24,854 bases of DNA from a virus. Of this stretch, positions 50 to 13,680 are shown piece by piece. The notes below the pieces were generated by a model that was not told where the DNA came from, did no database searches, and was given only the letters and a program-made list of their open reading frames with translations. The position numbers and the translations under genes were made by a program. The stretch lies in IMG/VR virus record IMGVR_UViG_3300042197_004786, positions 1 to 24,854 of that record; one strand, written 5' to 3'. Positions within the stretch are counted from its first letter, which is position 1. Each line of letters opens with the position of its first letter.

Positions 50-493
50 TTATTGACACCATGACTGTTTGGTTTCACCGTAGTATTCACGGGCCAGGCC
101 GTTCTTTAACAGCCCCTGGCGCACGCTGCGACCATCCACCAGGATGTCGCCCAGCACTCGTCCACCAAACTTGTCCCAACCGTACAAGGTGACCTGGAAC
201 TTTTGGCCTGATGCCACCAACTGTCGGGTCCAGGCCGAGGCGGCCTCACCGCGCTGTGCTTCGCTCGGACATTGTGCTCTATGGCCTTTTTCTGGTGTGT
301 CCACTCCAAAGATCCTCACCGCCAGTTCAGGTTTGAGCGGCGCGGGCAGGAAACGCGCAGAGATCACGATGGTGTCACCATCACTTACACGCAAGATCTG
401 CGTGTCGTAGGTCACGCCTTGTGGTTGCTTCTGGGCATACGCAGAGCCTATCATTGCGAGCACGGTCATGATCATCGCTGCTATGGTTTTCAT
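50..493 (-). CDS. Secreted SNase-like (thermonuclease family) nuclease
   Basis: This is a 147-residue protein of the staphylococcal nuclease family, which cleaves DNA and RNA using calcium. Residues 1-20 look like a Sec signal peptide: Lys2, a hydrophobic stretch, and an AYA cleavage motif before Gln21. The family core follows: DGDT at 38-41, RIFGVDTPE with Arg60, Asp65 and Glu68 (matching Arg35, Asp40 and Glu43 of the model enzyme), and DKFGGRVLG with Arg112 (matching Arg87). Length is normal for a single-domain SNase. The start is supported by an AAGGA eight bases upstream and by a 4-base ATGA overlap with the preceding gene. Export to the periplasm is inferred from the signal peptide. Family is confident; its use to the phage is unknown (host or competitor DNA degradation, or a virion role). 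Confidence 0.88.
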   Translation of the reverse strand: MKTIAAMIMTVLAMIGSAYAQKQPQGVTYDTQILRVSDGDTIVISARFLPAPLKPELAVRIFGVDTPEKGHRAQCPSEAQRGEAASAWTRQLVASGQKFQVTLYGWDKFGGRVLGDILVDGRSVRQGLLKNGLAREYYGETKQSWCQ

Positions 494-894
494 CTTGGAT
501 ATCCTTGGAAGGCCCGTATGGGGCTCTGTGTGGCCACGAAATCAGGTTCGTGGCTTTGGGCATCACCCACTGGCTGTTTGCCGCCGGGTGTGCGGGTCAT
601 CTTCAGCGCGGCATCTATCACGGGCGCGATACTGGCCGTGGTGCCAACCACCACCGCATGTTCTCCGAAAGCTGTTTCTGCGGACCATTCGGGAATGTAG
701 GGATCGATGCCGGTATTGGCTGGATTCAGCGCACTGGCATAATCGCTGCGCGCCCTGGCCATGGCCACACCCATCCTGTAATTTTTGTAGGGATCGCTGG
801 CACTGAGTCCGGGCAGCACATAGGTATGGCGCATGGGAGCGCTGGATTCCGGTGGTAGAGACCGTTGTTCTGTCACGAACTCGCGCGCTCTCAT
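490..894 (-). CDS. Conserved phage protein, MRAREF...FQGYPR family (134 aa)
   Basis: No function is recognised. The protein starts MRAREFVTE and ends SPIRAFQGYPR. The neighbouring 123-aa protein has nearly the same two ends (MRAREFLQE and SPIKGFQGYPR) around a different middle. The N-terminus resembles the T4 capsid-targeting peptide MKTYQEFIAE, with a possible prohead-protease site after VTE (residue 9). The middle, roughly residues 34-95, includes a DPYKNYRMGVAMA segment and looks alpha-helical; there is no membrane segment. The start ATG at 892-894 overlaps the upstream TGA (ATGA), with AGGGG eight bases before it. Similar small proteins occur in aquatic T4-like phages, from memory. A virion-internal role is an inference. 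Confidence 0.8.
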   Translation of the reverse strand: MRAREFVTEQRSLPPESSAPMRHTYVLPGLSASDPYKNYRMGVAMARARSDYASALNPANTGIDPYIPEWSAETAFGEHAVVVGTTASIAPVIDAALKMTRTPGGKQPVGDAQSHEPDFVATQSPIRAFQGYPR

Positions 895-1262
895 CTGGGA
901 TACCCCTGGAATCCTTTGATAGGGCTCTTGACATTGCCACCCGGTGGTTCTTGGCTGCGCATGTCGCCGCGGTTGAGATCCTGATGTATGCTGCCCACGG
1001 CTTCATAGGCCTGCCGCAGCATGGCCGCTTCTTCTTCAGTGTAAGGCAGAGCGATGTCGTAGTTGTGCGCCCATGATGCGCTGGGGACATCTATGGGATT
1101 CACGCCATCTGCCGCGGCCACGGCCATCATCACACGATGCAGCTCATAATAGCGATCGCGACCGTCGGCATCTTTGAAACGATGCAGACCACGGGTGCCG
1201 TATCGCTGCCGCTTGGTCAGCCGGCCTTCGGGACCTTCTTGCAGGAACTCTCGGGCTCGCAC
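891..1262 (-). CDS. Conserved phage protein, MRAREF...FQGYPR family (123 aa)
   Basis: This protein shares its ends with the next gene downstream (MRAREFLQE at the start, SPIKGFQGYPR at the end), but the interior differs. It has a GTHGLHRF-type segment (read as GTRGLHRF, about residues 23-30), a YELHRVMMAVAAADG helix and LPYTEEEAAMLRQAYEAVG (about 73-91). The function is unknown. The start codon is GTG at 1260-1262, with GGAG seven bases upstream; no ATG lies near the conserved N-terminus, so GTG is the likely start. A possible prohead-protease site follows LQE at residue 9. The last codons overlap the following gene by ATGA and also supply its ribosome-binding site. Confidence 0.78.
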   Translation of the reverse strand: MRAREFLQEGPEGRLTKRQRYGTRGLHRFKDADGRDRYYELHRVMMAVAAADGVNPIDVPSASWAHNYDIALPYTEEEAAMLRQAYEAVGSIHQDLNRGDMRSQEPPGGNVKSPIKGFQGYPR

Positions 1263-1264
1263 CG

Positions 1265-1579
1265 CTAGACTCCGTAGTTGCTATCTGCTCCCAACTGAGC
1301 TGCTGTGGTAGGCCGCACGGCCACTAGACCGGACGAGGTGGTGCCGATTTCCTGCGCGGTGAAGTTCGCCCCAGAGATGGTGAGCTGATTGCCCACACCC
1401 ACCCAAACATCCGAGCTCCAGTTGGCCGGCACAGATGTGGCATTGCTGTAGAGATTGCCGGTGTCAGGTGTGCCATACAGGATGTTGACCTGATAGGTCA
1501 CGGCTGTGTTGCCCGTGGTGATGCGGCATTTGTCGGTGTTCCATGCCAGACTTGAAACTGTGGTGTATACATTGGCCAT
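1265..1579 (-). CDS. Small hypothetical, probable structural protein (104 aa)
   Basis: The protein is not recognised by function. It is 104 residues, rich in Thr, Ser, Asn, Gly and Val with few charges, which fits a beta-rich virion protein such as a decoration or accessory structural protein. Notable segments are SSLAWNTDKCRITTGNTAV (about 8-26) and VGVGNQLTISGANFTAQEIG (about 60-79). There is no signal peptide or membrane segment. The ATG has TGGAG eight bases upstream, and this ribosome-binding site lies in the last codons of the homing endonuclease gene. It is probably transcribed with the MRAREF genes downstream. The structural role is inferred only from composition and context. Confidence 0.72.
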   Translation of the reverse strand: MANVYTTVSSLAWNTDKCRITTGNTAVTYQVNILYGTPDTGNLYSNATSVPANWSSDVWVGVGNQLTISGANFTAQEIGTTSSGLVAVRPTTAAQLGADSNYGV

Positions 1580-1580
1580 T

Positions 1581-2207
1581 TTACAAACTCCATTTTTTGT
1601 GTAACCATTTTTTCACTAGGTCATTAGTGGTTCCTACTGCTATGGCTATGTTTCTTATTGAATGACCTTGAGATCTCAAATGATAAATTTGATCGTATTG
1701 ATCTTTGCTCAAAGATCGTCTTGTCAAGGCGCTTTTTACAATTTGTTCTCTGGTAGGCTTCACCCAGGGTTTTTTCATGCCTTGATGTGCCATGGATATT
1801 TTGGCTTTGCTTTCTTCCGAATGCTTTTTGTCCTTCATCCGATCATAATTCTTCGGTATGCCTTTCTGGGCTATGCTCCTAGCCAGATTGGATTCCTCGG
1901 ACATCACGATGCCGTTGTTGCCATCGCCGCCTTTGGTAGCGTTGTATCCTTGCTGATAGGAATCAAACTGTTCAATCAGTTCTATCTCTTTGCATTTTGC
2001 TTCTTCTACAGATGCCACCTCCAGTAGGGTCTCCACCTGCCAACAATCTAGTCCATGCTTACGGATCGCATTGTAAAACTTTCGATTGTCACGGTTTTTC
2101 AAGGCATCATCTTTGTGTCTTTGCCATCTGTCAGCCACAGTTCTACCAGTCCAGCCGATGTAGCATTTGTCGTTTTCGAGATTGGTGATTTTGTACAGGT
2201 ATGCCAT
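1581..2207 (-). CDS. GIY-YIG homing endonuclease
   Basis: This is a 208-residue GIY-YIG nuclease. The catalytic domain is N-terminal: YLYKITN at 3-9, CYIG at 15-18, catalytic Arg27 in RTVADRWQRH, Glu74 in CKEIELIEQFDS, and GYNATKGGDG near 86-95. A NUMOD3-like DNA-binding segment follows (KHSEESKAKISMAHQG, around 127-142). The C-terminal 40 residues look like a helix-turn-helix (DQYDQIYHLRSQGHSIRNIA). ATG at 2205-2207 is the best start; a longer reading to 2279 would run back into the upstream gene. The gene starts one base after the upstream TAA and ends one base before the next ATG, so it fills an intergenic site without breaking a gene. It is visibly AT-rich (21 of 60 G/C by hand in 1681-1740), consistent with mobility. 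No catalytic residue seems missing. Confidence 0.88.
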   Translation of the reverse strand: MAYLYKITNLENDKCYIGWTGRTVADRWQRHKDDALKNRDNRKFYNAIRKHGLDCWQVETLLEVASVEEAKCKEIELIEQFDSYQQGYNATKGGDGNNGIVMSEESNLARSIAQKGIPKNYDRMKDKKHSEESKAKISMAHQGMKKPWVKPTREQIVKSALTRRSLSKDQYDQIYHLRSQGHSIRNIAIAVGTTNDLVKKWLHKKWSL

Positions 2208-2208
2208 A

Positions 2209-3846
2209 TTACCAGGAACGACATGCCCAGTAACGGGCCGATGTTTTAGGACCGGGATTGTCACACCGGTGGCGAGCACGGAAACTTTTTCGCCGGGCTG
2301 GATTGGATTTTTTGATCTTCATGTTGGGATCGCCAAATGATACTTTTCTTATATTTTTGGTCGTTGGATCCTTGACATACACATAAAATTTCTTTGATCC
2401 GCCGCGTTTTGGTTTATTAAGTTCCACCTTGCGGCCTTGGTATTCGGCTTCTTGCACGGGCGCCGTGGCCGCACGCACGCGGAGCCTTTTCATCTGCCCA
2501 TTGGTGTCTATCTCATAAAAATGCATGTCTGCATCTCGTATGCCTGCCATCTTTTCGGCCTGTTCGGGACTGTGACCGCTCTTGATCGCGCGGTTATAGG
2601 CATCGGCCTTCTGCTGATCATAACCCTCATTGATTTTGTCTGCTCGCTCTGCGTCACGCATGGCTGCCCGGTTTGCTTCGATGTCTCGATCCAGCTCTGC
2701 TCGACCAGATGCCGGCGATTGCATCCCAACTGCCCGACCCGCCTGTTTGATGTTGCCCTGCAAGTTGTCCATAGCTCTCTGCCACATGGGTCTGTCGCCG
2801 TGTTTGGGTTGTGTATCGGCCTCATCTAGCTGGCCACCAAAATCATCTGCGATACGGTCCATCAAGCGATCCAGGATCATGTCAGAATCATCATCGGGAT
2901 GCAAGCGGAAATCTCTGGCCACATCCGCATACATGTCCTGCACCATCTCGCCTGCTGGCGATGTTGAAGTCAAGAGATCATACAGCCGATCATAGTCACC
3001 GGCATCAGCGATCTCGGCCAGTTCGGTGGCTACATCTTTCATGGCACCCTCGTCCACAGTGGTGGCTGTTGTGGGATCTTTTTCTGTGCCCACAGGTGCT
3101 AGATCCGCGGCCTTGGCTGCCAAGGGATCGGTGCGTGCAGCATTGGGGTTGGGCTGGATGGGGACGGTTTCTGCGATGGTCACTCCGGCCAGTTCTAGCA
3201 TGCGCGGCATGTAATCTTCATTCGTGGGCTCATCTGGTTTCTGCGCCATGGCCTGGCGCATGCCTCGACGGGCTAGATGCCGTGCCCGATGTTTTATAGG
3301 GTTGCCAAACTCGTCGCGGTCACTGGCATCACGATCGGGCGTGAATGGTACATCATCGTCAGCATAGAGTTCCACGATACGATCCATTAGGATATCAAGA
3401 TTGCGATACTGGTCATGGCGGAATCCTCGCCCCTGGCGCTCCATGTCAGATTCGATCTCCTGCATCATGTGCTGGAGATATTCAGCGGTCTTGGAGCCCA
3501 GCTCGCCCTGCAGGCCATCGATCAGGCGGCCTTGGTCACCACTGGCTGCTATGTCACGGAGATCGATATCGATCTCGCTCATCACACCTTCAGCCACGGT
3601 GTAGCCCATGGCCCTGCTGGAACCTACCGCTCCGTAGCGACCTATGCGCTCAGACAGCAGGCCGCGCTGTTTCATCACTGCTGCGGCCGATTCAGAGATC
3701 TCCAACACGATGTATTCACCATCCGATTCGAGCACACGGCCTTCCACCAGCTCGTCAGGTGCCAGCTCGATGTCAAGCTCATCGCCCTCACGGGGGCTAT
3801 CGGCCCAGTGTTCTGTTTCAGCGAAATAGTGTCGCAGGCTCTGCAT
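2209..3846 (-). CDS. Large conserved phage protein, possible prohead-core/internal protein (545 aa)
   Basis: This is an acidic, mostly helical protein of unknown function. It begins MQSLRHYFAETEHW. FAE at 8-10 sits where a prohead-protease site would be, but Phe is not the usual L/I/V. Two D-rich helical units resemble each other: NLDILMDRIVELYADD and DMILDRLMDRIADDF. The last 80 or so residues form a basic domain with KKFYVYVKD, ARRKSFRARHRCDNPGP and a final ARYWACRSW; I recall this ending from other aquatic T4-like phage proteins, so the C-terminus looks complete despite the adjacent homing endonuclease. The start is ATG at 3844-3846 (TGATG with the upstream stop), seven bases after AGGA; a GTG three bases earlier is possible. 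Context suggests a head-assembly role. Confidence 0.78.
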   Translation of the reverse strand: MQSLRHYFAETEHWADSPREGDELDIELAPDELVEGRVLESDGEYIVLEISESAAAVMKQRGLLSERIGRYGAVGSSRAMGYTVAEGVMSEIDIDLRDIAASGDQGRLIDGLQGELGSKTAEYLQHMMQEIESDMERQGRGFRHDQYRNLDILMDRIVELYADDDVPFTPDRDASDRDEFGNPIKHRARHLARRGMRQAMAQKPDEPTNEDYMPRMLELAGVTIAETVPIQPNPNAARTDPLAAKAADLAPVGTEKDPTTATTVDEGAMKDVATELAEIADAGDYDRLYDLLTSTSPAGEMVQDMYADVARDFRLHPDDDSDMILDRLMDRIADDFGGQLDEADTQPKHGDRPMWQRAMDNLQGNIKQAGRAVGMQSPASGRAELDRDIEANRAAMRDAERADKINEGYDQQKADAYNRAIKSGHSPEQAEKMAGIRDADMHFYEIDTNGQMKRLRVRAATAPVQEAEYQGRKVELNKPKRGGSKKFYVYVKDPTTKNIRKVSFGDPNMKIKKSNPARRKSFRARHRCDNPGPKTSARYWACRSW

Positions 3847-5990
3847 CACTGGATCCTCTTGTAGAGATCCATCAAGCGGTTCTGCATCTTCTGCTCGATG
3901 TCTTCTGCCACAGCACCAAGGTTCAGCTGACCTGAAGCACCTTTGCTGGCCAGGCTGCGCATGGCCAGGGGATTGTCTGCCGGATTGTTGGGGTTGCTCT
4001 GCAGCTTGGGACCGTTGAGTCCGCCGCTCACGCCATAGTCTCTGGTATCACCCAGTTCGGCATATGCAGGTTCTGGCGAGTTGGCCAGTTCCTCTTCTAC
4101 CATGTCGCGGCCTGCGCAACCGGCTTCGTGCATGCCCTCGTGCCCACCGCATACTTTGCAGGTGCTGCCAGAGGATCCGCCGCCGAGGCCCGCCATCTTC
4201 AATATGGCGGCCAGCTGGTCGGCTTCTTCGTCTGTGGCGCTCACAGTGAGACTCTTTTTACCTGTTTCGTCCACGCTCATGTTGATGTTCATGCCTTCTG
4301 TGAGCATGGCGAACTTGCGATCGAAACTTTCTGCGATCTGGCTCTCATACACACCTTTGCCAAACTGCATGCCGCCTTTCTTGGCTTTGGGTGTGTCAGT
4401 GCTTACAGCCACTGAACCTGACACCGTGGTCTCGTCCATTTCTTCTTTGTCTTCCTCTTTTACCTTTTCAGGTAGACCTTTTTCTTTGGTCTTGGCGAAC
4501 TTCCGGAGTTCACCGGAGGGCATCTTGGCCATCTCTTTGGAGGCACCGCGCAGTTCCGACTTGGGTATGTCGCCTTTCTTGGCCGCGTAGGCGATGCCGG
4601 CAGCGGCACGCTGGGCCCGGCTCACGGCCTTTTCGGCTACCAACTCTTCGTCGTCCACTTCCACATCTACATCCATGTCCTCTTCATCGGGATTGGCTTT
4701 CATGTAATCGCGAGCCGAATCGATGTACTCCTTGGCCAGGGTGATCTTCTTTTGCACCCACTCTGGCAGGTTCTCATCATCGTCCAGGATGTCCTGCAGT
4801 TCCTGTGCAGCATCCTCGATGGTGCGGGCTTGGCTCTTGGCCATCTCGCCTTCCTCGTCGTACTCGTCTTTGTCGTAGTCTTCCGACACATCTTGTCTCA
4901 GAGCCGAATACACAGCCTGGACAACTTGTTCGTGCTGGCGGTCAGAGAGATCAGACAACTGTTCTGCCACTTGTGTGCGTATCTCTTCGATATCGGCATT
5001 GGCAAAATCCTCGTCGTAGTCATAGTAGGTAAACTCACGAGTTTTGCCATCAATCTTCATTGTGAATACTTGTTGATCCAGATCATACTCTTGACCCAAG
5101 ATTCTGACATCTTCCGACATGCGCAAGAGCTTTGAACGGCCCGAGGGACCTTTGGCTCCGAGGGCGCGTTTGGCACCTTTAGGGCGACCACGACCGCGTT
5201 TCACGACATTGCCTTCCGCATCCTGCTCTTCGGACGCATCCACGGGCTCTAGGCTTGTGACCTTGCGACGGCCATCCATTTCTTGGTAGCGCTTGCGGGT
5301 GCCATCCCTGAAGGTGACCACATAGTCATCACTGCGGCCTTCCACATCGGCACCAATTTTCTTATACATCTGTTTCTTGTCAAAGAAATCAGCAAAACCT
5401 TCGTCCATGCGCTGCTCGTCTGAGGTATCACCGGTCACACGATAAACTTTGCCATCAAGTTTGAAGGTGGGTTTGCCGGCACGGATCGCTGCCAGCCTGG
5501 CTCCTGTAAAGTCGTTGCCTTCGCCCATGTCTGCTTCATCCATCTTGTCGTGCTGGGCACGGATCCGGGCCATCTTTTCTTTGCTGGCACCGGCGCGTCC
5601 GGCCTTCTGTAGGGCAGCCATTCCTTCTTTGCCATATTTCTTCTTGCCGAGATAGGCCTGTAGAGCAGACTCTTCCATGTCAGCTTCATTTACATCTTCT
5701 TTAGCACGCAGTTTGGCCAGCACGGCACCGGCCACTTTCTCGCCGCGCTCTTTGCTGCCATAACGCTCGCCCGCTGACTTGGCTATTTTTGCGAATGTCT
5801 TGCCGGGCTTGCCGATGTCCTTGCCGGCACGCGCGGCCTTGGCCGAGTAACTGGCTTCGTCTACTTCCTTGGCGGCCTTGCTGATAGGTTCGGTGCGGTC
5901 ACCGTCACGGTCGATGTCAGGAAAGTCGGGTTTGAAGCTTTTGCCTTCCAGCAGGTTCATTTTTTCAAGTATGTCGTACATGTTGTTCAT
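3846..5990 (-). CDS. Large charged multidomain protein with AT-hook, scaffold-like (714 aa)
   Basis: No enzymatic domain is recognised. The protein is strongly charged (Glu, Asp, Lys) and low in complexity. Segments in order: MNNMYDILEKMNLLEGKSF at the start; a KPGKTFAKIAKSAGERYGS block near 60-80; a VVTFRDGTRKRYQ block; an AT-hook RGRGRPKGAKR near 266-276; LPEWVQKKITLAKEYI; QIAESFDRKFAMLTEGMN near 560-577; a SLTVSATDEEADQLA block; and a CxxC...C cysteine cluster (CKVCGGHEGMHEAGC, about 609-624). Several L/I/V-x-E sequences (LLE, IAE, LTE, VAE) could be prohead-protease sites, as in the T4 scaffold gp22. AAGGAA lies six bases before the ATG at 5988-5990, better placed than for the ATG at 5991-5993. 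A scaffold or internal-protein role is an inference. Confidence 0.75.
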   Translation of the reverse strand: MNNMYDILEKMNLLEGKSFKPDFPDIDRDGDRTEPISKAAKEVDEASYSAKAARAGKDIGKPGKTFAKIAKSAGERYGSKERGEKVAGAVLAKLRAKEDVNEADMEESALQAYLGKKKYGKEGMAALQKAGRAGASKEKMARIRAQHDKMDEADMGEGNDFTGARLAAIRAGKPTFKLDGKVYRVTGDTSDEQRMDEGFADFFDKKQMYKKIGADVEGRSDDYVVTFRDGTRKRYQEMDGRRKVTSLEPVDASEEQDAEGNVVKRGRGRPKGAKRALGAKGPSGRSKLLRMSEDVRILGQEYDLDQQVFTMKIDGKTREFTYYDYDEDFANADIEEIRTQVAEQLSDLSDRQHEQVVQAVYSALRQDVSEDYDKDEYDEEGEMAKSQARTIEDAAQELQDILDDDENLPEWVQKKITLAKEYIDSARDYMKANPDEEDMDVDVEVDDEELVAEKAVSRAQRAAAGIAYAAKKGDIPKSELRGASKEMAKMPSGELRKFAKTKEKGLPEKVKEEDKEEMDETTVSGSVAVSTDTPKAKKGGMQFGKGVYESQIAESFDRKFAMLTEGMNINMSVDETGKKSLTVSATDEEADQLAAILKMAGLGGGSSGSTCKVCGGHEGMHEAGCAGRDMVEEELANSPEPAYAELGDTRDYGVSGGLNGPKLQSNPNNPADNPLAMRSLASKGASGQLNLGAVAEDIEQKMQNRLMDLYKRIQ

Positions 5991-6000
5991 CATGGGTTCC

Positions 6001-6603
6001 TTATGTCCTGAAGCCGGTGGCTGGTCGAGGTGGTCGTTTTACTGTGCTCATAGGGCTCTTCACTCCCATGGGCAGATCGTTTGTGGTCTCGGCTGGAGGA
6101 GTTCGGCCTCCTGCCACGGTCCATACAGCATCTTCTGCTGAATTACGCACTACCTGCTTGTCCTTGCCCACGGCAGAGTAATCTCGGATCAATTCTTTCT
6201 GTTCTTTGGTGTCGGCAGGATAGTCTGTGAGCAAAACAGGAGATCCCTGATCCTCGATGCCCATGAGTTCGGCATCCATGCCTTCGGCCCAGTGGGTTTC
6301 ATTGATCGAGATGCGATCCGGATCTAGGCCCAACAACTGTGCTATCTGTTGGATCTGCGGTGGTATGGCTGGATAGCGAAACACCACATCCATCATGTTC
6401 ACGGCTTGGTTGTTGAAAGCAGGAAAGTCTTTGGGTTTGGCCAGTATGGGTGTGGTTTTCACATCACCTATTGACACCGGATCAAACTTTTTCAAGCGGA
6501 CCTTGAACTCTTTGACGAAATCGCCGGGCAGATCTCCCACGATCTTGATGCGGTAATCAAAGGTCTTCTCGCTCTCTGTAAGATATTGTGCGAATGTTTT
6601 CAT
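6001..6603 (-). CDS. Conserved head-region protein with capsid-targeting-like N-terminus (200 aa)
   Basis: The protein begins MKTFAQYLTE, close to the T4 internal-protein capsid-targeting peptide MKTYQEFIAE, which the gp21 protease removes after Glu10. The next segment, KTFDYRIKIVGDLP, and the pattern of a roughly 100-residue alpha/beta domain recall a conserved aquatic T4-like phage protein of unknown function. The C-terminal 60 residues look disordered (Pro, Thr, Arg rich). ATG at 6601-6603 is chosen over a longer in-frame reading because AAGGA lies eight bases upstream and a late promoter (ATAAATA, 6621-6627) lies 17 bases upstream. The TAA overlaps the ribosome-binding site of the next gene. 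A prohead-core or internal role is inferred. Confidence 0.75.
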   Translation of the reverse strand: MKTFAQYLTESEKTFDYRIKIVGDLPGDFVKEFKVRLKKFDPVSIGDVKTTPILAKPKDFPAFNNQAVNMMDVVFRYPAIPPQIQQIAQLLGLDPDRISINETHWAEGMDAELMGIEDQGSPVLLTDYPADTKEQKELIRDYSAVGKDKQVVRNSAEDAVWTVAGGRTPPAETTNDLPMGVKSPMSTVKRPPRPATGFRT

Positions 6604-6604
6604 G

Positions 6605-7147
6605 TCAGGATTCCTTGGTGTATTTATGGGCTGCGGTGTTTTGTGCGGTGGGCTGCACATCCAGTACGCGGCGCAGGAGTTCGTTGCGATCCAACACTGT
6701 GCCTTCAGCGGTGGTCATTGCCACACCGTCTGCACCGCCTTCTCTGTCCAGTTTGAGCTTGCGCATCTGCAGATCGATCATCTTGAGCTTCTTGTTCATC
6801 TTGGCCGTCTTGGCTGTTATGGCATGCCCCAGCATGGTGCTGGCCACGGCGAAGATCTCGGAACTGTATCGGCTGTCGACCTGCATGCCAAGGTTCATGA
6901 GATCATCAAAACTCTCCGTGGCCCGGCTGGCAAGATCGTCCATCTCTGTGTCGCTTGCTTCTAGTCCGCGGACCGCTGGAAGGGCTGCTTCGATCTTGTC
7001 AAGAGCAGCCAGAGCTTCTGGCAGGACGGGCAACTGCGCCGCATCGCTTGCAGTTTGGCTGTCATGGTCGGTGATTGGTTCATCTAGGTCTTGGCTTCGG
7101 GGTAGGTCAAAGAGATCTTCTAGTTTCTGGTTCTGTGGCAGGCTCAT
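6605..7147 (-). CDS. 16: Terminase small subunit, T4 gp16-like
   Basis: This 180-residue, mostly helical protein has the general layout of T4-type small terminases: an acidic, disordered N-terminus, a central helical hairpin (DDLMNLGMQVD and SEIFAVASTMLGHAI, about 80-112), a Lys-rich helix KMNKKLKMIDLQMRKLKLD (about 115-133), and a C-terminal TVLDRNELLRRV motif (about 150-161). In T4 the gp16 oligomer regulates the gp17 packaging motor. The gp17 gene is not next to it here and is not in the window. Length is close to T4 gp16 (164 aa). A GTAAATA lies only five bases before the ATG and there is no strong ribosome-binding site. Assignment rests on remembered family resemblance, so it is moderate. 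Confidence 0.62.
   Translation of the reverse strand: MSLPQNQKLEDLFDLPRSQDLDEPITDHDSQTASDAAQLPVLPEALAALDKIEAALPAVRGLEASDTEMDDLASRATESFDDLMNLGMQVDSRYSSEIFAVASTMLGHAITAKTAKMNKKLKMIDLQMRKLKLDREGGADGVAMTTAEGTVLDRNELLRRVLDVQPTAQNTAAHKYTKES
6621..6627 (-). promoter_or_regulatory. T4-type late promoter of the 200-aa head-region gene
   Basis: ATAAATA on the minus strand (context CCCATAAATACACC), 17 bases before the ATG at 6603 with AAGGA between. It sits inside the last codons of the terminase small subunit gene. Confidence 0.65.
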
Positions 7148-7155
7148 AAGCCTAT

Positions 7156-7590
7156 TTACCGTTTTTTTCCTCGCCGGAAAAGATGCTCTTCGTTCAGCAC
7201 CCGGAACACGATGCCAGACCGTTTACACCAGGCCTGGGCCGCTTGCCATTTGTAATGATTGATGGCCACTATCATGCGATCTTTTTCGCTCATCCGGCCT
7301 TCGATCATGCTCTGTTTGCGTGGTTTGATCTCCACCAGTTCCGAACAGATCTTGTTATTTTTGGTACGATACCGCAGGAACACGTCCGGCACATACATGG
7401 TCATCCGGCCGGTGAAGGGGTGCCGATAGGGTATGGAGATAGCTTCGCTGGCCCATTCCAGGATGTGATCGTTGTTGTCACAGAACTGGAAGAAAGCCCA
7501 CTCCCATCCCGAACGATAACGGGGGAATCCTTTGCCTATGTATTTTTTAGGGTTGAGAGGTCGGTACACACCTTGTGCGAACTGGCTCAT
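7156..7590 (-). CDS. 4: Head completion nuclease, T4 gp4-like
   Basis: This 144-residue protein matches the T4 gp4 head-completion family, which acts after DNA packaging so that tails can attach. The fold is a PD-(D/E)xK nuclease related to the TnsA endonuclease domain. Visible catalytic-type residues are Glu30 in SGWEWAFFQFCD, Asp69 in YVPDVFL, and Glu87-x-Lys89 in LVEIKP. T4 gp4 is about 150 residues, so the length fits. The ATG at 7588-7590 overlaps the upstream TGA (ATGA), pointing to coupled translation with the 119-aa gene. The stop is eight bases before the small terminase ATG. Confidence 0.85.
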   Translation of the reverse strand: MSQFAQGVYRPLNPKKYIGKGFPRYRSGWEWAFFQFCDNNDHILEWASEAISIPYRHPFTGRMTMYVPDVFLRYRTKNNKICSELVEIKPRKQSMIEGRMSEKDRMIVAINHYKWQAAQAWCKRSGIVFRVLNEEHLFRRGKKR

Positions 7591-13319: not shown

Positions 13320-13335
13320 CAAGATAAGTATGTGC

Positions 13336-13680
13336 ATGAGACCACTGTGCCGGGTGTGTGAACGCAATGCCGCTGCCATCAACGGCTATCACAACGGTCG
13401 GGTGTACTATCGCAGCAGATGCAATGCCTGCATCAGGAGAGGCCGGCAGCAGAAACCTGCGGCGCCGCGCTGGCAACAGTCAGGTTACAAAAAAAAGAAC
13501 AGTTGTGATCGCTGTGGATTCCGGGCACGCCATGCCAGCCAGCTCATGGTATATCATGTGGATGGGGATCTCAATAATTCGGAATTACGCAATCTCAAGA
13601 CAGTTTGCTTGAACTGCGCGGCCCTGATCACGCGTCAGGATCTGCCCTGGCGGCGCGGAGATCTCGAACCAGATCTGTGA
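13336..13680 (+). CDS. HNH-like zinc-finger protein
   Basis: This is a 114-residue protein with four CxxC pairs: Cys5/Cys8, Cys29/Cys32, Cys57/Cys60 and Cys91/Cys94. The C-terminal half follows the HNH plan: DRCGF, then YHVDGDLNN (His74, Asp76, Asn80/81), then LRNLKTVCLNC. The usual final His after the last cysteine pair is absent (Ala95), so it may bind DNA without cutting. I recall close relatives in other aquatic T4-like phages. ATG at 13336 is chosen; another in-frame ATG lies two codons earlier. It is encoded opposite to its neighbours, divergent from the sheath gene, and its last 53 bases overlap the end of the dNMP kinase gene. It could be a nuclease remnant, a regulator or an active HNH enzyme. 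Confidence 0.75.
   Translation: MRPLCRVCERNAAAINGYHNGRVYYRSRCNACIRRGRQQKPAAPRWQQSGYKKKNSCDRCGFRARHASQLMVYHVDGDLNNSELRNLKTVCLNCAALITRQDLPWRRGDLEPDL

Follow-up and report, generated by a model that had tools for sequence, protein, structure and literature searches.

Introduction

The internal proteins IPII and IPIII of bacteriophage T4 begin with the capsid-targeting sequence (CTS) MKTYQEFIAE (PMC9026906, PMC3012670). Residues 4 and 7 of IPIII function in targeting and residues 8 and 10 in processing, and T4 gp21 cleaves after L/I-x-E (PMC9026906). The head ejection proteins of phiKZ and SPN3US (PMC5694885) offer a comparable case, in which N-terminal propeptides are cut by a gp21-family protease after x-x-E and paralogues have near-identical N-termini, although most of these propeptides are longer than 100 residues and are cut at A-x-E or S/A/G-x-E, as opposed to the L/I/V-x-E described below. 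Enzymes have also been reported in cyanophage virions: a virion proteome has been published for S-CREM2 (PMC10665884), NMNAT is a reported virion protein of S-SCSM1 (PMC9602691), and a cytidylyltransferase of S-SZBM1 was detected by mass spectrometry (MS; PMC9146016). For such enzymes, contamination or high expression could not be excluded (PMC10665884, PMC9602691). The accessible parts of these reports name no targeting signal, and in the literature that we searched, with incomplete coverage, we found no description of such tags for cyanophages or for T4-like phages from the environment.

Here we analyze a 24,854-base virus record (IMG/VR IMGVR_UViG_3300042197_004786; the window), a fragment of 24.9 kb that carries a T4-like tail and neck module and for which a nucleotide search of the phage collection returned no close relative. 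An initial annotation had noted that five neighboring genes begin with tag-like, protease-cleavable peptides, and all five N-termini were found where it had placed them, on the minus strand (Table 1). We conclude, with a probability of roughly 0.84, that this block encodes interchangeable cargo for the head interior of a T4-like phage, fitted with head-targeting tags of the T4 type that gp21 removes. For the five proteins themselves, targeting, cleavage after the glutamate and injection are what we infer from this assignment.

Results and Discussion

Locus and gene order

Downstream of the gp4-like gene, the minus strand encodes proteins of 180, 200, 714, 545, 208, 104, 123, 134 and 147 aa in that order, and the block neighbors tail-tube, sheath and gp4-like genes. 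Homologues of the SNase-like nuclease gene occur in 34 of the retrieved loci described below. The GIY-YIG gene has a homologue in just one of them (L054) and therefore looks recently inserted. A 116-aa open reading frame beside the sheath gene on the opposite strand (13330-13680, plus) has Cys pairs and resembles an HNH-type endonuclease.

Table 1. Features of the block and its surroundings; positions refer to the window.
Feature	Position	Strand	Evidence
Head-closure gene, gp4-like; upstream syntenic anchor of the block	7156..7590	-	PHROG 218, E 3.9e-38
180-aa gene, without tag; negative control	6605-7147	-	N-terminus
200-aa protein; predicted internal head protein	6001..6603	-	tag and domain evidence
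Putative tag MKTFAQYLTE (200-aa protein); register as in T4 IPIII MKTYQEFIAE	6574..6603	-	
Acidic protein of 714 aa with several modules; predicted to be a tagged internal protein	3846..5990	-	DUF3008 and modules in MS-detected cyanophage virion proteins
Putative long-form tag MNNMYDILEKMNLLE (714-aa protein), ends LLE	5946..5990	-	
KPDFPDIDRDGDRTEP module; also in two MS-detected virion proteins, S-SCSM1 ORF92 and S-CREM2 ORF111	5838..5933	-	
DUF3008 module; stand-alone virion protein in S-SCSM1 (ORF93)	4461..4628	-	
Internal LTE565, candidate second cleavage site	4296..4304	-	in 59/61 homologues
545-aa protein; predicted tagged internal protein	2209..3846	-	N-terminus
Putative tag MQSLRHYFAE (545-aa protein)	3817..3846	-	
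208-aa GIY-YIG homing endonuclease, between 545-aa and 104-aa genes	1581-2207	-	
104-aa gene, without tag; negative control	1265-1579	-	N-terminus
123-aa protein, GTG start; tandem paralogue of 490-894	891..1262	-	N-terminus, alignment
Putative tag MRAREFLQE (123-aa protein)	1236..1262	-	
Conserved C-terminal peptide SPIKGFQGYPR (123-aa protein)	894..926	-	alignment
134-aa protein; paralogue of 891-1262	490..894	-	N-terminus, alignment
Putative tag MRAREFVTE (134-aa protein)	868..894	-	
Conserved C-terminal peptide SPIRAFQGYPR (134-aa protein)	493..525	-	alignment
147-aa SNase-like nuclease, hydrophobic signal-peptide-like N-terminus	50-493	-	

The tags and their chance expectation

Four of the five N-termini fit the T4 CTS register, and the 714-aa protein begins with a longer variant outside this short register. 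Like the T4 CTS, which occupies about 10 N-terminal residues, the tags lie at the extreme N-terminus within about 10-20 residues. Hydrophobic or aromatic residues occur exactly at targeting positions 4 and 7 in the 200-aa and 545-aa proteins; the MRAREF proteins have A3 and F6 instead, so that these positions are shifted by one residue. The hydrophobic residue at position 8, the glutamate at position 10, the variable cargo behind a conserved tag and a gp21-type protease, here found in relatives, are further features in common with T4. Orthologues of all five families include the closing L/I-x-E site, and P3 in the window's own copies is F in the 545-aa and V in the 134-aa protein. In contrast to T4, the cargo here is unrelated to IPI-III and falls into far more families, and the predicted tags also take two other forms, MRAxEF[ILV]xE of 9 residues and MYDIL/FFYDLN of 15-25 residues.

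An [LIV]xE triplet near the N-terminus is by itself poor evidence, because it is too common and shows no more than a mild enrichment at residues 8-11 in four related genomes. We therefore used a full register, ^M.{1,2}[FYLA]..[FY][LIVMF].E, composed from T4 MKTYQEFIAE and the window peptides, in which the choice to permit F at P3 was partly swayed by the window and S-CREM2. From shuffled N-termini one expects 0.05-0.13 matches in a related genome and 0.009 in the window, against 2-5 and 4 observed, and the matches cluster within the block (hypergeometric p between 4e-5 and 3e-3). When the closing residue was swapped in a slightly narrower register, counted over loci not picked by a DNA pattern, E gave 223 distinct proteins, K gave none and any of D/Q/N/S/T gave 12. 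In T4, used as a positive control, the register picks IPII and IPIII (identified through the published CTS sequence), one 54-aa open reading frame and one in-gene start. The 54-aa frame (L374:18966-19130) starts MKTFKEFIKE, fits the CTS register as IPII and IPIII do, and might be packaged.

Conservation in relatives

Nucleotide and tblastn searches of phage isolates yielded almost no relatives for four of the five proteins, and the 545-aa protein matched isolates solely via its C-terminal domain, which is widespread in marine phages. We therefore turned to IMG/VR, from which 171 loci were retrieved using the gp4-like, 714-aa and 200-aa proteins; gene order is conserved across them. The closing E10 and a hydrophobic P3 residue are present in all 80 orthologues of the 200-aa protein, whereas chance LxE triplets elsewhere in this protein are retained in 6/80 and 5/80. 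The closing E and hydrophobic P3 likewise occur in 63/63 orthologues of the 123-aa protein and 59/59 of the 134-aa protein, and [LIVMF]xE in 39/45 of the 545-aa protein. Absence of the L/I/V-x-E positions from relatives had been named in the initial annotation as grounds for abandoning its inference, which thus survived. It had also singled out FAE of the 545-aa protein as the weakest case. Orthologues mostly read MK[ST][LF][RK][DE]Y[LI]xE, so that FAE is an outlier in its own family; most of these orthologues have [LIV]xE, and an MS-detected virion protein of S-CREM2 has the same F (see below).

In the 714-aa family, [LI]xE falls within residues 10-30 of 53 of the 60 distinct homologues, compared with 13.9 expected from shuffling, and within the next stretch (residues 31-51) of 11/60; it comes at a variable distance after a conserved N-terminal segment. 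Two interchangeable N-terminal forms, MNNMYDIL... and MTFFYDLNKK..., precede LxE in this family. Across orthologues, E at P1 and the P3 residue are near-invariant and P2 is variable, and insertions behind MRAREF leave an LxE or IxE intact at a shifted position (VLSE in L122, NLGE in L063 and KITE in L091). Fixed P1 and P3, a free P2 and an LxE at shifting distance are the pattern expected from a protease that reads P3 and P1.

A total of 281 distinct MRAxEF proteins in the loci, part of which were selected by a pattern that includes the E, form 31 BLAST-unrelated clusters, thus indicating that this tag behaves as a module. Pfam assigned mostly no family to ten MRAxEF-tagged cargo proteins. Contig G001 (L209:80-5557) carries another cluster of N-termini that are of the MRAxEF type or resemble it; this cluster includes a HAD-like protein with the MRAxEF start MRASEFSNSK, without a closing E, and MRAQEFVTEKWSTKYKRSINC, which matches cyanophage proteins near terS/terL. 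A Vibrio jumbo phage encodes, two genes after its gp4-like gene, a protein that begins MKDLNTILTE and is 36% identical to the first part of the 200-aa protein. A Vibrio jumbo-phage protein starting MTKQINE was considered as a detached C-terminal part of the 714-aa protein and rejected, since its matches elsewhere are weak and of low complexity.

Tags in cyanophage virion proteomes

In S-CREM2 the register occurs in 6 of 219 annotated ORFs, five of which are among the 52 MS-detected proteins (Fisher p 0.003). These five are a SAM hydrolase (MKDFDSFLEE), an APH/ChoK-like kinase (MKRFDAFLTE), a cytidylyltransferase (MKNFSSFLTE), ORF13 (MKDLHSFLTE) and ORF136 (MQTFSMFFSE, with F at P3). Permitting the core motif anywhere additionally finds the virion-detected Cas9-like ORF12, at residue 18. 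As the register was partly set after the S-CREM2 N-termini had been seen, S-SCSM1 and S-SZBM1 were examined. A tag on the S-SCSM1 NMNAT was predicted before its sequence was read, and the protein does start MKSFLQFLKE. Three annotated S-SZBM1 ORFs have the register; in the MS table the cytidylyltransferase (MRFRQFIIE) is listed and the other two are absent. These phages have in common with the locus the CTS register, which in them marks virion-associated enzymes, and the DUF3008 and KPDF modules; they differ in their hosts and cargo. Two virion-detected proteins have CTS-like C-termini, possibly C-terminal tags: S-SCSM1 ORF93 (L383:29627-29836; TFKEFLEYIE) and S-CREM2 ORF12 (L361:7704-10313; KTFRDFLN).

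Matching tags on enzymes inside the virions of cultured relatives imply that head cargo may be genome-readable. We consider it reasonably probable that aquatic T4-like phages use a modular 9-10-residue N-terminal tag to load dozens of unrelated proteins, that gp21 removes the tag, that the cargo can be read from genomes and that it includes host-directed enzymes, namely a SAM hydrolase, a kinase, NMNAT and a Cas9-like protein. Such a tag would explain how enzymes enter cyanophage virions and would make the question of contamination testable. If the rule is true, proteins likely to be delivered with the DNA of a T4-like phage would be predictable from sequence, uncultured viruses included, and each conserved L/I/V-x-E gives one exact N-terminal mass-spectrometry prediction per protein.

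Mechanism and alternative readings

A mechanism is proposed in which a short, probably helical tag at each N-terminus would work like the T4 CTS, its hydrophobic and aromatic side chains binding the prohead core during assembly. A gp21-type protease would then cleave past [L/I/V]-x-E and release the mature protein, which would be retained in the head and then probably be delivered to the host alongside the DNA. Two tag forms would operate: a 9-10-residue CTS (MKxFxxYLxE or MRAxEF[ILV]xE), found on numerous proteins that have no other relationship, and a longer one of 15-25 residues, in which MNNMYDIL... or MTFFYDLN... is followed by LxE. The gp21 homologue that the initial annotation advised seeking is absent from the window, but Peptidase S77 (gp21) and gp23 score above Pfam cut-offs in 14 of 18 long related contigs, and the gp23 N-termini of relatives have LxE shortly ahead of the conserved body (YLKE/NASAG, YLQE/SSAG and LLAE/SS). 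It is unlikely that the tags are uncut core-binding peptides that merely place proteins in the prohead. The P1 glutamate could be structural, kept for helix capping or binding, and the T4 work does separate targeting from processing residues; however, the free P2 between fixed P3 and P1 is protease-like, LxE moves with insertions and varies in distance in the 714-aa family, and the protease is there in relatives.

A scaffold or core role, in which gp22/gp67/gp68-like components are fragmented and lost from the head, is quite improbable. The 714-aa protein does resemble these T4 core proteins in being acidic and having several conserved [LIV]xE sites (LTE565 in 59/61 homologues, in otherwise moderately variable surroundings, and VEE633 in 57/61). 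Relatives, however, carry a separate gp22-like gene between gp21 and gp23, the block proteins have no homology to gp22 and no scaffold-family match in PHROG or Pfam, and related modules persist in the mature virions of S-SCSM1 and S-CREM2. The proteins thus look like internal cargo, and of the two roles offered in the initial annotation for these putative prohead proteins, scaffold is the unlikely one. The annotation's placement of the proteins in the prohead accords with the matching tags on virion-detected proteins of three cyanophages. Least likely is that the common N-termini reflect another assembly role, such as docking at the tail or neck, or that they stem from a recent duplication of genes: the block adjoins tail-tube, sheath and gp4-like genes and the 123-aa and 134-aa proteins are paralogues with common N- and C-terminal peptides, but MRAxEF tags occur on unrelated clusters, and the register marks T4 internal proteins and non-structural enzymes of cyanophage virions.

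Bodies of the tagged proteins

The mature bodies show no homology to T4 IPI-IPIII in PHROG or Pfam and are not assigned to the IP family. Two modules of the 714-aa protein, KPDF..D.DG..EP and DUF3008, recur in the S-SCSM1 virion proteins ORF92 and ORF93, which makes it plausible that the 714-aa family is virion-borne. Of the internal sites that had been pointed out in the 714-aa protein, LTE565 and VAE453 (55/61) are retained and IAE554 (30/61) is not generally so; together with VEE633, the conserved sites allow more than one cut, and the protein may undergo cleavage at these additional positions. The 200-aa protein matches PHROG 14802 "virion structural protein" (head and packaging) weakly (E 0.0013). 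Its AlphaFold model (pLDDT 72) has a ferredoxin-like domain at residues about 14-101 and a low-confidence C-terminal half; Foldseek hits are mostly ribosomal S6 (best E 0.004), and since the fold has no specific relative no function was assigned from it. By analogy with the T4 internal proteins (PMC3012670), one might guess at a counter-defense role for the cargo bodies. The model of the 134-aa protein consists mainly of helices and loops, and a sequence search of the PDB gave no match. In the 123-aa and 134-aa paralogues, conservation is limited to the N-terminal tag, certain core residues and the peptide SP[IV]KxFxGYPR at the C-terminus, which matches the tag in its degree of conservation.
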